25,058 nucleotides of DNA. Source: a virus. Each line of letters starts with the position of its first letter. The first letter of the stretch is position 1. The stretch is from positions 1 to 25,058 of the IMG/VR virus record IMGVR_UViG_3300028837_000401. One strand, 5' to 3'. The notes under the pieces were generated by a model, which searched no databases, was not told where the DNA came from, and saw only the letters and a program-made list of their open reading frames with translations. Positions 12,992 through 24,949 of this stretch are shown here, in pieces. Both the position numbers and the translations under genes were made by a program.

Positions 12992-15900
12992 AGATTGAGC
13001 GAAAACAGAAAGACGTTGAAATATTTGGCAGGACTCTAAAACTGACAGAACGCTCCGTGGGTGTTATTTATAAACTGTCAGAATTTGGAAGTAATGGCAA
13101 TCCCAACGGCCCAATATTCGCCTATGTCGCAGGCATTGCCGATGCGCTTAAATGGAACTGGCATAGTCTTTCAAGGTGGAAGCCTGAACGCAGGAAACTA
13201 AAGAAGCTCTTGTCTCCTGCTAATCTTCGCCGAAGGAAAAATAAAGTAATGGCAAACGAAGAACTTGCAACTTTATATGTGGACGTTGTGGGCCGTCTTG
13301 ACGGCCTGGAAAAACAACTGAGACGCGCCCAGAAAGAAAGCGAAAAGTCTGTCGGCAAAATGAACAAAGCGTTTAATAAGTTTGACGCTAAGATTGCCAA
13401 GATGAAGCTCAGTGAATTACGTGTTCTTCGGAACAAACTTCAAAATGAATTCCAGCGGAAAATTAAACTGAATGTCAGCGGGAAAAGTCTTGATACGACA
13501 CGCCGAAAACTAGCCATGGTTGAAGGTGCGCTTCAGGGCGTTGAGACAAAGGCGCCCAAAGCGGCCAACATATTTCAAAGTGCATGGTTGAGAGCAGCCG
13601 CAGCGGTTACCACTGTTATTATTGCGGTGCGCAAAGCATTTAGTTTTGCAAAGGAAGTCAAGAACGCGGCTCGTGACGCAGAGGAAACAGAAAACAAATT
13701 TCTAACTGTCTTTGAGAATATCCAGGATAAGGCCAGGTCTACGGCTTCAGTGCTGGCAACATCTTACGGGATGGCAAATAGTACGGCGCAAAATCTTTTG
13801 GGGTCCACGGGTGATTTACTTGTGGGTTTTGGATTTACTGAGGACGCTGCACTTGGACTTTCAAAGCGGGTGAATGAGCTGGCTGTTGATCTTGCATCAT
13901 TCCAAAATATAGAGGGTGGGACCGAGAGAGCGAGCGAGGCACTGACAAAGGCTATTCTTGGCGAGACTGAATCCGCTAAAGCTTTGGGTATTGTTATTCG
14001 CCAGGATACAAAGGAATTCAAAGACAGTGTTGAGGCAATACAGAAGTCCCGTGGTGTAAACGAGAAACAAGCAAGATCCATAGTCATCCTGGAAGAAGCA
14101 TATAAACAGTCAAAAAAGGCGGTTGGTGATTTTGCCAGGACTCATGATCAACTTGCAAACCAGGAACGGATTGCCAAAGAAGAAGCGAAGAAATTTCGCG
14201 AAGAGATAGGCAGAAATCTTCAACCCACATTTCTATCGGCTACAAAGCTAGCAATTAAATTTTTTAGGGCAATCACGGAAACGGACCTAGACCAAACTAT
14301 TAGACAATTGGGTGAGTTGGGAGCAAGTGCTGAAACTTTGGTCCGGCTAAACGCAAGTAATACGCTTTTAAAAAACCTGAAAGCTGAAAAGGGAATAAGG
14401 GAAGATATTGCCAAACTTACCTTTGAAGCAGATCTTGGAGCGGGTAAAAAGTTTAAAACATTTGGAGGGATTCCAAGTCCAAAATTTGAAGGTGCTACAG
14501 AAGAAATGGAGCGTTTCAAAAATACCCTCAAAAGTCTACAATCAGGTCAACTGGATGCCGCTGCGAGAAATGAGTTAATTACTAATACTACATTCGAACT
14601 GACAGACGCACTGAAGGAAGTTGCCGACATTCAGGCACAAGGGAAAAATGTTCCAAATGCAATTAAGGATCGCGCAAATGCTTTGCAATATATGATCGAT
14701 AAATACTCTGGAATCATTGCTAATCTTGCTGCTATGGACGAGATGACAAGAAAAAACACGATTGCACAGAAGATATTACGCGGTGAGATGACAAAAACCA
14801 GTGATGCGTTTTCTGTTAAGCTTGGCAAGATGAATCTTGGTGAGCTGGGAAATTTGAGAAATGAACTTGAAAAAGAGTTGGGAAGAAAAATAAAGCTTAA
14901 TGTTAATCTTGAAAGCCTTGATGAAACCCGGCACAAGTTACGGCTTGTTGAGAATGCTATAGGCGACCTAGATAACGTTACCGACAAAACAGGGGATGCG
15001 GCAAAAGAGCGTGAATCGATCATCGAAAACTATTACAATACTGTTCGCTTTATGGATGCTAATTATGTAAAATATAGAGAGGCACAGATTCAGCAAGAAG
15101 TTGATGCTGTATTTCGTGCGACAAAAGACAAGGACAAAGCCGAACAGTTGGCGAATAAAAGGCGAAAAGAGCTTAATGATGATTTTTTGCAATATGCTTC
15201 TTCGAGGGTTGATGAGAATGTAAAAATACAGAGTGATGGAAATGAGAAGATTATCGAGGGGGAAGGTGAGACATATGTAGAACGTCTTAAAATTAGTAAA
15301 GATTTCTGGGAACAAATGCAAGAGCAGATTCAAAACTTCAATGATTTGCAGTATGCCGCCTTCGATGCCTTTGCCACGGGGTTTGAATCTATGCTTGACA
15401 CTGCCACAACAGGCCGCGAAGCATGGCAAGAAATGGCGGATACATTCATCGCAGCAGTGAGGCGGATGATTGCTGAATGGATTGCACTAAAGGTAGTAAT
15501 GGGACTTACAGAGCTTATTACTGCTGGCGTGAAATTAATTTCAGGTGCACCTAGTGCAGACTTTGGCCCTGCATCTTCAGCTCTTGCCGGTCACTCAGGC
15601 GGAACCTTTCAAGGCACCTCTAAGGGTGTTCAGAAAGTACAAGGTTTTTCAAAGGGTACAAACGGATTCATTGACCCCTCTTCCTTATCTGTACCCGCCG
15701 CCCATACAGGCGGAACTTTCAAGGGTACGTCTTCAGGGGTTGAAAAGGTTCAAGGTTTTTCAAAGGGTACGGATGGATTCATTGATCCATCCGCTTCCCC
15801 TGCCGCACGTACGGGTGGGACATTCAAGGGCACCTCTAAGGGTGTTCAGGAAGTCCAAGGCTTTTCAAAGGGTACAAACGGTTTTATCAACCCCTGGGCA

Positions 15901-22394: not shown

Positions 22395-22559
22395 ATGAAT
22401 AAGAAATGGTATGCATCAAAAACGATCTGGGTAAATGCAATTGCAATCGTCGGGATTATTGTGGCTGGCAAAGAATTCGATCCTCAGATCGTTGCGACCG
22501 TGTTGGCGGTTGTCAACTTTGCCTTGCGAGCTTTAACCAAAGAAAATATCACCTGGTAA
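22395..22559 (+). CDS. Holin-like small membrane protein
   Basis: 54 residues from ATG 22395 to TAA 22557-22559, with GAAGGAG eight bases upstream. MNKKWYASKTIWVNAIAIVG gives a first membrane segment, then IVAGKEFDPQIVATVLAVVN a short loop and second segment, ending ALRALTKENITW. The short W-SKT-W-N opening, two helices around a DP turn and the LR..T...I.W ending fit a common type of small phage membrane protein annotated as holin. It is the last gene of the late operon, directly before the terminator. The assignment is by pattern and place. Confidence 0.65.
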   Translation: MNKKWYASKTIWVNAIAIVGIIVAGKEFDPQIVATVLAVVNFALRALTKENITW

Positions 22560-22582
22560 AAACTCCCACTTGCTCCTCCGCC

Positions 22583-22609
22583 AGGTCCGGCGTAAAAGCC
22601 GGGCCTTTA
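22583..22609 (+). terminator. Rho-independent terminator of the late operon
   Basis: AGGTCCGGC (22583-22591) pairs with GCCGGGCCT (22598-22606), nine pairs with one G-U, loop GTAAAA, followed by TTATTAT. It lies 23 bases after the holin-like stop and 39 bases before the next promoter. Confidence 0.85.
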
Positions 22610-22647
22610 TTATAAGCCCCGCTAATAATAATTATTAGAATATTTAA

Positions 22648-22679
22648 TTTGACAATGCTTGACAGATTGATTATCTTTG
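22648..22679 (+). promoter_or_regulatory. Promoter of the second transcription unit (Bacteroidota-type and sigma70-like)
   Basis: TTTG (22648-22651), 20 bases, then TATCTTTG (22672-22679) fits the Bacteroidota -33/-7 pattern TTTG and TAnnTTTG. The same bases read TTGACA (22649-22654), 17 bases, TATCTT (22672-22677), a good sigma70 match. The predicted start is about 22685, a few bases before the first hairpin. Confidence 0.75.
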
Positions 22680-22689
22680 TTTGGAAATT

Positions 22690-22924
22690 AACCGGGGAGC
22701 CAAACATGAAATCCAATTCGAAATTAAACGCCTTGAGCCAGCATTCTCCCCGGTTTGCATTCAGGGCGTTTTCAATGGTGGGCGTGACTAGGGGTCACGA
22801 TGAACAACCCACTACCTTCACCAAACGCGGGGGAGCCGTCTTGCCGGACCTTTCCCCCGCTAAATTAAATCACTCTCATTACCTTTCCTCAATAGGGTGC
22901 GTGTGTCTAACAGCACACGTACCC
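22690..22924 (+). ncRNA. Candidate structured RNA / leader with four hairpins
   Basis: Four helices in 235 bases immediately after the promoter. P1: AACCGGGGAG (22690-22699) with CTCCCCGGTT (22746-22755), 10 bp. P2: outer TGGTGGG (22776-22782) with CCCACTA (22808-22814, one G-U), inner CGTGAC (22783-22788) with GTCACG (22794-22799), loop TAGGG. P3: GCGGGGGA (22827-22834) with TCCCCCGC (22853-22860), 8 bp. P4: GGGTGCGTGTG (22895-22905) with CACACGTACCC (22914-22924), 11 bp with one G-U. P1 encloses the ATG at 22706 and buries its GGGGAG. GGGGAGCC occurs twice (22694-22701 and 22830-22837), so alternative pairing with CTCCCC at 22746 is possible. It may be a cis regulator, a trans-acting RNA or both. 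I do not recognise a known class with certainty. Confidence 0.55.
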
Positions 22925-23044
22925 ACCCCTCAAACTGGAATCGCTGACATTATTAGCGCATTTTTCGCGGCGTGTTTCTTTATTATTGTGGGTATTGTGA
23001 TCGGGGCGTGTGTATATGCATATCTTACAAGGAGGTTGAAATGA
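22706..23044 (+). CDS. Small membrane protein overlapping the structured RNA
   Basis: 112 residues if started at ATG 22706 (GGGGAG six bases upstream, inside hairpin P1); another start is ATG 22775 after AGGG (89 residues). The first two thirds (RFAFRAFSMVGVTRGHDEQP ... HYLSSIGCVCLTAHVPTPQ) look like translation of structured RNA rather than a fold. The last 36 residues are a convincing membrane segment plus basic end (ISAFFAACFFIIVGIVIGAC, then YAYLTRRLK). The stop overlaps the next ATG (ATGA at 23041-23044), which argues that the frame is translated. The odd FSMVGVTR-type text recalls, weakly, Ash/Icd-like phage proteins that are encoded over C4- or P4-type regulatory RNAs; this is a hint only. 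Confidence 0.5.
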   Translation: MKSNSKLNALSQHSPRFAFRAFSMVGVTRGHDEQPTTFTKRGGAVLPDLSPAKLNHSHYLSSIGCVCLTAHVPTPQTGIADIISAFFAACFFIIVGIVIGACVYAYLTRRLK

Positions 23045-23430
23045 TCTGGAATATTATAGGGTTATTCATTGCGTTTTTTCTGGGAATGTTCATACTTGCT
23101 CTTGTGAGTTTGCACCGCCAGAATAAGGCTGATGCCGAATTAAAACTTTCAAACAGATACCTCTCTGACGCATATAAGTGGATAGAGGAACTTGGACAAT
23201 TGGCCGACAAGAATTACAAGCGAATTGTAGCACTGGAAAAATTGGCCGATGAAGCACGGTTACAGGTTGCATATTACAAAAAGAAATACGGTGAAGAACA
23301 GGACAGTATTCAACGTGTAATTTTGGGATCAGATGAAACGGTAATTCAAGATGCCCTTGCCGATGCAGAATACAAAGCATACAGCCGCCTGGAAGAAGAG
23401 GGCAAAGGCCAAAGCCGAGGTGAACGCTAA
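23041..23430 (+). CDS. Membrane-anchored coiled-coil protein
   Basis: 129 residues from ATG 23041 (AAGGAGG six bases upstream; an in-frame TTG at 22972 lies inside the previous gene and is rejected). One N-terminal membrane anchor (MIWNIIGLFIAFFLGMFILA) followed by about 100 residues of charged helix (SNRYLSDAYKWIEELGQLAD ... LEKLADEARLQVAYYKKKYG). The form resembles small phage proteins that sit on the inner membrane early in infection. Function unknown. It is coupled to the preceding ORF by ATGA and followed by a GC-rich hairpin. Confidence 0.65.
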   Translation: MIWNIIGLFIAFFLGMFILALVSLHRQNKADAELKLSNRYLSDAYKWIEELGQLADKNYKRIVALEKLADEARLQVAYYKKKYGEEQDSIQRVILGSDETVIQDALADAEYKAYSRLEEEGKGQSRGER

Positions 23431-23746: not shown

Positions 23747-24584
23747 ACGATTCAGAGTCTACCCCGAAATTCAGCGGATTGATATGTTCGATGAACGCTG
23801 GTATCAACTGACCCTTGAAGGTGGGAAGGTTGAGGATTTTCGCGGTGTGACAACGTGGCTGGAAGCCTTCCCGAAAGGCGCGGCTTTCAAGAAGTGGCTC
23901 AAAAATAATGGTGTCAATGCAGACCGGATTTTCAAAGAGGCTGGTGAGTTTGGTTCCAAGTTTCACGAGTTGCCGGAAAGAACACTGTTAGGCGATACCG
24001 TGACATGGGAAGAAGTGAACGACATCGACCTGTGGGAACGGTTCATAACATGGTGCGGATTCTGGCGGACATTGACACGGGCCAACGAGGTTAAGGTTGA
24101 TCCGCAATTCATTGAGTACATCGTTCACGATCTTGATGATAGGGCCGCTGGCACCGTGGATGCCTGTATATGGGTAAACGGTGAGCCTATTGTGATGGAT
24201 TGGAAGTCCGGTAATTATGTTGGCGATGAAGCACAGATCCAGCTTTCAACCTATGCCATGTATTCACGCAGGGTCTTTGATCTGGACATTAAACGAGCTT
24301 GGATTATTCACATGCCAGCCAAGAAACCGAACATTCGGGGATACAAAATCTATGAAATCACTGAGGGCAAGGTTGAGCCGATTGAGCAGATTAAGGTTTC
24401 TGATGTGAAAGCTTCAATCCAGGAAAACTACGATGACTTTCACCACACCCAGAAACTATACACCCGTACTCATCCCAACGAAAAACCCAAGTACAAAAAC
24501 TATCCAACGTCTATCAACCTTGGCACCATCGCAAAAGATGAAATTGTCAAGGACGGATTATCAGTAAAAAGAGAGGCTGCATAA
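23739..24584 (+). CDS. PD-(D/E)XK nuclease, RecB/Cas4-like exonuclease
   Basis: 281 residues. The core motifs are in order: H76 in the FGSKFHEL helix, D141 in AGTVDACI, D154-x-K156 in IVMDWKSG, and Q166/Q168 with Y172 in AQIQLSTYAMY. This is the RecB-family arrangement seen in phage and Cas4-type exonucleases. No Fe-S cysteines of Cas4 are present. It probably resects DNA ends for phage recombination or replication, together with the next gene product. The stop overlaps the next ATG (TAATG at 24582-24586). Confidence 0.85.
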   Translation: MSERFRVYPEIQRIDMFDERWYQLTLEGGKVEDFRGVTTWLEAFPKGAAFKKWLKNNGVNADRIFKEAGEFGSKFHELPERTLLGDTVTWEEVNDIDLWERFITWCGFWRTLTRANEVKVDPQFIEYIVHDLDDRAAGTVDACIWVNGEPIVMDWKSGNYVGDEAQIQLSTYAMYSRRVFDLDIKRAWIIHMPAKKPNIRGYKIYEITEGKVEPIEQIKVSDVKASIQENYDDFHHTQKLYTRTHPNEKPKYKNYPTSINLGTIAKDEIVKDGLSVKREAA

Positions 24585-24949
24585 TGGAAATGTTTGTCAA
24601 AAAATTTGTAGGCAAGGAAACATACACTTTCGTTGTTAGCGGTAAGAGCTTGCACGAATGCCTGACAGAAGCCAAAAAGATTAGTTTCTATCAAATATCT
24701 AAGTGTGGACTCTGCGGGAGTGATGAACTCTATTTGACCGCATATACGACCCAAGAAGAGAGCTACGAATACGTTAAGTGTATTTGTAGGGAATGCAAAG
24801 CTTCTCTGACGTTCGGGCAACCCAAGAAGGAACCGAACACCTTTTATCCACGCCGTGATGACAATGGAAAATACGTGTGGAAAAAATTCGAGGGCAAGGA
24901 AACCGCGGCCACGACACCAGAACCAGCAAGCGATGATTTGCCCTTCTGA
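24584..24949 (+). CDS. Zinc-ribbon protein with SSB-like DDLPF tail
   Basis: 121 residues. N-terminal alpha/beta part, then a zinc ribbon C41-x2-C44 ... C68-x2-C71 (C66 adjacent), a disordered Thr/Pro/Glu linker, and the C-terminal tip DDLPF. The tip matches the acidic-hydrophobic end of bacterial SSB, which recruits RecO, RecQ, Exo I, PriA and others. I infer a phage ssDNA-binding or recombination mediator working with the upstream nuclease; DNA binding itself is not demonstrated by the sequence. TGATG joins it to the next gene. Confidence 0.65.
   Translation: MEMFVKKFVGKETYTFVVSGKSLHECLTEAKKISFYQISKCGLCGSDELYLTAYTTQEESYEYVKCICRECKASLTFGQPKKEPNTFYPRRDDNGKYVWKKFEGKETAATTPEPASDDLPF

Follow-up and report, generated by a model that had tools for sequence, protein, structure and literature searches.

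We analyzed a window of 25,058 bases, a linear IMG/VR contig whose (+) strand carries the terminase (1787), portal, head, and tape measure genes through the endolysin (21662). The endolysin is followed, in order, by a terminator-like hairpin, a promoter, a structured region, and genes 23041, 23501, 23739, and 24584. Ahead of the hairpin, the likely gene is a 54-aa holin-like ORF at 22395-22559 (MNKKWYASKTIW...), and the mechanically listed ORF at 22406-22615 is out of frame with it. The features of this part of the window are as follows:

22583..22606 (+): intrinsic-terminator-like hairpin at the 3′ end of the upstream lysis/late unit (terminator scan)
22622..22638 (no strand assigned): perfect palindrome CTAATAATAATTATTAG, upstream of the −35 element (repeat search)
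22649..22679 (+): predicted promoter TTGACA-N17-TATCTT(TG) (scan)
22690-22699/22746-22755 (+): helix P1, 10 bp, perfect, AACCGGGGAG/CTCCCCGGTT
22690..22699 (+): 5′ arm of helix P1, AACCGGGGAG; the leader Shine-Dalgarno sequence lies within it (−7.3 kcal/mol for its duplex with the 16S tail)
22706..23044 (+): leader ORF, 112 aa, with a C-terminal membrane-type segment
22726..22736 (+): 5′ arm of helix S2, AAACGCCTTGA, in the loop of P1 (repeat search, folding)
22746..22755 (+): 3′ arm of helix P1, CTCCCCGGTT, a perfect 10-nt anti-Shine-Dalgarno in the loop of S2
22761..22771 (+): 3′ arm of helix S2, TCAGGGCGTTT (repeat search, folding)
22776..22814 (+): nested hairpin P2 (folding)
22827..22860 (+): hairpin P3, 8 bp, perfect, GCGGGGGA/TCCCCCGC at 22827-22834/22853-22860
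22895..22924 (+): hairpin P4, 11-12 bp, with arms at 22895-22905/22914-22924
23041..23430 (+): next gene, 129 aa, with an N-terminal membrane segment and a coiled-coil-like stretch
23501: small gene
23739: exonuclease gene
24584-24949: Lar-like (restriction alleviation) small protein (TIGR03655, E 8.5e-05, below the family cut-off)

Further analysis of the signals upstream revealed that TTGACA-17-TATCTT at 22649-22677 is the only TTGACA-type match of such strictness in the window, in agreement with the strong promoter that an earlier sequence-only reading of this DNA had placed here. From this predicted promoter, the transcript is expected to start near 22685. The Bacteroidota −7 promoter consensus is TAnnTTTG, and the −10 region TATCTTTG also fits this form. 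Since the terminase is nearest to those of Bacteroidota prophages (~45-53% identity) and the −10 region fits TAnnTTTG, the host is probably Bacteroidota-like, though not certainly so because many genes in the window carry recognizable Shine-Dalgarno sequences. The palindrome CTAATAATAATTATTAG looks operator-like, and a protein may bind there. Its left arm recurs in inverted form over 10 nt as ATTATTAGCG (22949-22958; complement of 22620-22629), 319 nt downstream and within the leader ORF.

The leader ORF starts 6 nt past GGGGAG, and its stop codon shares ATGA (23041-23044) with the start codon of gene 23041. All of the helices lie in or just before this ORF, with P2 to P4 inside it, and no in-frame ATG, GTG, or TTG precedes its membrane segment except within the RNA region. 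Its in-frame codon-usage score of −0.01 falls under nearly every recognized gene and over the other frames, as expected of a coding stretch bent by RNA structure. Profile searches against Pfam, PHROG, and NCBIfam returned no significant match for the leader ORF, weak PspB/LapA/Rz-like matches only for gene 23041, and no recognized antirepressor among the neighboring or downstream genes. Membership of the leader protein in an Ash/Icd-like family was considered and dropped; PF10554 gave no match to it, and the control likewise gave none.

On the (+) strand, 22685-22930 has a folding energy of −89 kcal/mol (z −5.59), compared with a z of only −1.49 on the (−) strand. Because most of the folded region lies within an ORF, codon constraint was tested as an explanation. 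None of 500 synonymous-codon permutations of 22706-22924 folded as well (z −5.9), and the observed fold stood at z −5.2 against synonymous redraws and at z −5.1 against codon-order shuffles of the same stretch, so that codon constraint fails to explain the fold. The RNA structure is thus genuine and strongly selected-looking, and it overlaps the leader ORF. The claim that nothing comparable occurs elsewhere in the window is close to right without being exact: it holds for energy excess, which is largest here in a scan of 210 stretches of 240 nt each; it does not hold for z, which is larger at 15646-15885, albeit from 16 shuffles only. This second folding outlier is on the (−) strand, antisense to the C-terminal repeats of the tape-measure gene.

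Repeat search and folding showed that helices P1, P3, and P4 are present at 10, 8, and 11 bp, as the sequence-only reading had described them, with CTCCCCGG pairing with CCGGGGAG in P1. P2, described there as 7+6 bp, is indeed a nested hairpin with an asymmetric loop but has two segments of 7 bp each, of which the final pair is G-U, together with an 8-nt asymmetric bulge and a 3-nt loop. All of the named helices exist; what the list had missed is S2 (22726-22736/22761-22771), which competes with P1 and whose arms match over 11 nt with one mismatch (12 bp in the fold). Likewise, a structured RNA does stand behind the promoter, and there is good support for placing it between the late and early units, yet it is more than a short 5′ RNA: it overlaps the leader ORF, and the ribosome-binding site (RBS) of that ORF forms one arm of P1. 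P2 and P4 were considered as duplicates of each other, a candidate that we rejected with the likeness near chance (p ~0.02-0.03).

The complement to the Shine-Dalgarno sequence is a perfect 10 nt located 40-50 nt into the leader coding sequence, compared with 7 nt at most for the longest RBS complement among the 25 other genes of the window. Shuffling the codon order produced a complement of 10 nt in 67 of 20,000 trials, and permuting synonymous codons did so in 889 of 20,000 (4.4%); by the latter control, it is only moderately rare. The antisense loop has one perfect complementary site upstream and, downstream, only GGGGAGCC inside P3. The latter sequence is present twice, at the leader RBS (22694-22701) and in the region of the P3 5′ arm (22830-22837), and through it P3 could compete for the anti-Shine-Dalgarno segment.

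P1 and S2 interleave and are either mutually exclusive or joined in a pseudoknot. The two are nearly isoenergetic, with forced P1 at −88.1 and forced S2 at −89.3 kcal/mol. In the folding of a growing transcript, P1 is present once 22756 is reached and is displaced by S2 at 22773; in the full-length fold, the predicted Shine-Dalgarno sequence is partly paired in both the P1 and the S2 states.

We tentatively read the element, with confidence just short of even, as a translation switch made up of the structured leader of an early-type phage operon and the first stretch of its coding sequence. The RNA would begin near 22685 and head an operon that leads to the exonuclease gene. In the off state, P1 would pair the leader Shine-Dalgarno sequence with CTCCCCGGTT and shut leader translation, while in the on state S2 would hold CTCCCCGGTT in its loop and leave the ribosome site free; during transcription, P1 could form before S2. 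Translation of the leader ORF would then melt P2 to P4 and bring ribosomes to gene 23041, coupled through ATGA. The element would thereby set the frequency of leader translation and, via the overlap, probably the expression of gene 23041, though this coupling may be unneeded because gene 23041 has a strong RBS of its own (AAGGAGG). P2 to P4 probably provide a stable scaffold, used in processing or by a partner acting in trans, a role at which we can only guess. S2, if released as a hairpin, could act in trans to repress further RBS copies.

The sequence-only reading named C4 antisense RNA and the phage P4-type RNAs as the closest concepts. These are apt comparisons, but the C4, c4-a1b1, and isrK models all stayed below their cut-offs. 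The covariance search against Rfam that it had proposed, C4 included, matched no family at the gathering score in the window, isrK (RF01394) and riboswitches among them. The best match of the C4 model (RF01695), at 22771-22819 on P2, reached 10.2 bits (E 0.85) against a gathering score of 45; the model scores phage P1 itself at 68.8 bits. The upstream target element c4-a1b1 (RF03163) was not matched anywhere in the contig, even at E values as high as 10. The unusual part of P2 is not its internal loop, which had been suggested as a recognition element, but the C4-like sequence of its 5′ arm, ATGGTGGGCGTGA, which carries the C4 5′ motif ATGGTGGG(G)CGTGA. The conserved 5′ arm of the C4 closing stem is ATGGTGGGGCGTG. 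Among 7,469 real hairpins comparable to P2 in GC and stability, just 0.13% are as close to the thirteen C4 sequences as P2 is. When the base pairs of P2 were re-dealt, p was 0.000-0.008 on the P1-sequence and mean scores and 0.02-0.06 on the best-match score.

The reference loci for C4 comprised phage P1 and twelve further phage loci taken from a C4 search, of which all 12 carry C4 above the cut-off and several also isrK or c4-a1b1. In several reference phages, C4 lies within a reading frame, where its translation reads ...IMVGRxG..., a parallel to FSMVGVT here. Annotated antirepressor ORFs at two loci (L186 1-729, mEp460; L192 1-726, cdtI) traverse the isrK and C4 RNAs, i.e., C4 is part of a fused coding sequence there. 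The element resembles the c4-icd-ant system of phage P1 in having a same-strand antisense element beside the RBS that it targets and a small leader gene joined to the next by ATGA, the enterobacterial C4 copies in lying inside an ORF, and C4 in the motif of the P2 5′ arm. In contrast to C4, P2 lacks the two inner hairpins that bear the antisense segments a′ and b′, the antisense segment lies in S2 rather than in the C4-like hairpin, and the complement is one block of 10 nt instead of two of 7-8 nt. We do not file the element as C4, to which it may be remotely or convergently related.

These comparisons bear on the leading alternative, namely a trans-acting antisense immunity RNA of the C4 or P4-CI type, in which a processed RNA (the S2 loop with CTCCCCGGTT plus P2 to P4) would give immunity by pairing with, and so blocking, the leader RBS of another copy, whether infecting or induced. 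The antisense loop does complement the RBS on the same strand and the same transcript, as in phage P1 c4, P2 shares its 5′ motif with C4, and P2 is the sole match of the C4 model in 25 kb at E up to 10. We nevertheless consider this reading rather doubtful, given the low C4 score, the missing c4-a1b1 element and inner hairpins, the lack of a recognized antirepressor downstream, and the single evident target site. A C4 model built here gave P2 only 6.2 bits and ranked hairpin P4 and several unrelated places above it. C4 was also not found in 395 Bacteroidota genomes, where the controls were likewise unmatched.

A design of this kind is proven in the Salmonella prophage Gifsy-1: the isrK-orf45-anrP locus has the RBS of orf45 in alternative helices, translation of orf45 is required for anrP with the overlap AUGA giving coupling, and orf45 is conserved in nucleotides, not in protein (PMC4825925). 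The locus described here shares with it a promoter followed by a structured RNA that a leader ORF overlaps, a leader RBS in one of two exclusive helices (P1 versus S2, predicted only), and a leader stop codon that overlaps the next start. Whereas isrK is a trans-acting RNA with a terminator of its own, no separate small RNA with a terminator is seen here; the present locus also differs in that the RBS pairs within its own ORF and the downstream gene is not a recognized antirepressor. The isrK model scores Gifsy-1 at 79.3. As in phage P4, where the CI RNA acts with seqA and seqC, an early-operon leader carries a hairpin loop complementary to an upstream site on the same transcript; unlike in phage P4, a convincing second site downstream, equivalent to seqC, was not found. 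A single-sequence model of this RNA (R1) had no match in the phage P4 genome.

Leaders that sequester the Shine-Dalgarno sequence at the 5′ end of a transcript include RNA thermometers, riboswitches, and attenuator leaders. The element resembles them in that one of two exclusive helices would sequester the RBS and differs in having both the sequestering and the competing arms inside the coding region and no match to an Rfam riboswitch. Overall, it is best read as a putative translation switch in the isrK/C4 style, in an unrelated phage.

A nucleotide search for relatives had also been proposed; blastn and tblastn found no homologue in phages, plasmids, or E. coli genomes. With the leader ORF, gene 23041, the exonuclease, and the Lar-like gene as queries, protein-guided scans yielded no relative, no relative of the exonuclease was found in 395 Bacteroidota genomes, and the leader protein was not found in 20 Bacteroidota genomes. 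A terminase scan recovered one identical 4.3 kb contig (L007) and relatives at 47%, none of which spans the structured region. Matches to DNA patterns for P2, for the Shine-Dalgarno/anti-Shine-Dalgarno pair, and for the P2 5′ arm were read as chance hits in unrelated DNA. Two weak matches of the single-sequence covariance model, which was run over 1.5 Mb of loci and the 395 Bacteroidota genomes, were put down to chance as well. In the genome set, this model was run with strict filters, so diverged relatives could have escaped. No homologue emerged from any collection searched. Computation supports the fold beyond coding constraint, the complementary segment, both competing helices, and the overlap of the two genes; where the RNA starts, that the helices switch, that translation is coupled, and any effect in trans are inferred.

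A second alternative is that RNA polymerase or Rho, and not the ribosome, is the target of the hairpins, which would form a cis-acting leader for antitermination or transcription control (put-like, or attenuation through lost leader translation). The hairpins begin near the predicted transcript start and head a unit toward the exonuclease, and TTTTC follows S2, but the terminator scan called none of the named hairpins a terminator, and such a leader would leave the precise complementarity to the RBS unexplained; we regard it as improbable. We give still less credence to structure needed at the DNA level, such as an origin or packaging site, or to protein-binding hairpins, with an RNA-binding regulator occupying P2 and P4. 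Inverted repeats are indeed numerous and P2 and P4 are mildly alike, but that likeness is near chance, and the folding excess is on the (+) strand, which favors RNA. Finally, chance, or an unusual protein-coding sequence without RNA function, would fit a single occurrence with no evidence of conservation but is highly improbable given that no synonymous permutation folded as well.

Returning to the translation switch, a bolder version is that the coding sequence of a leader gene folds into a pseudoknot-capable, two-state RNA that sequesters the RBS of that gene, contains a stripped-down C4-like hairpin, and serves at the same time as an antisense immunity RNA. This would be a new class of phage leader RNA, occurring outside Proteobacteria, and seems unlikely at present. 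In the literature compared, the documented cases of RNA control of phage early operons via overlapping leader ORFs (C4, IsrK, P4 CI) come from proteobacterial phages only. The locus is small, and the prediction is testable with two pairs of compensatory mutants. If true, a sequence-unrelated case in a phage that is Bacteroidota-like by its terminase would suggest a general, repeatedly evolving design; alternatively, it may imply that C4-type RNAs extend much further than their models detect.
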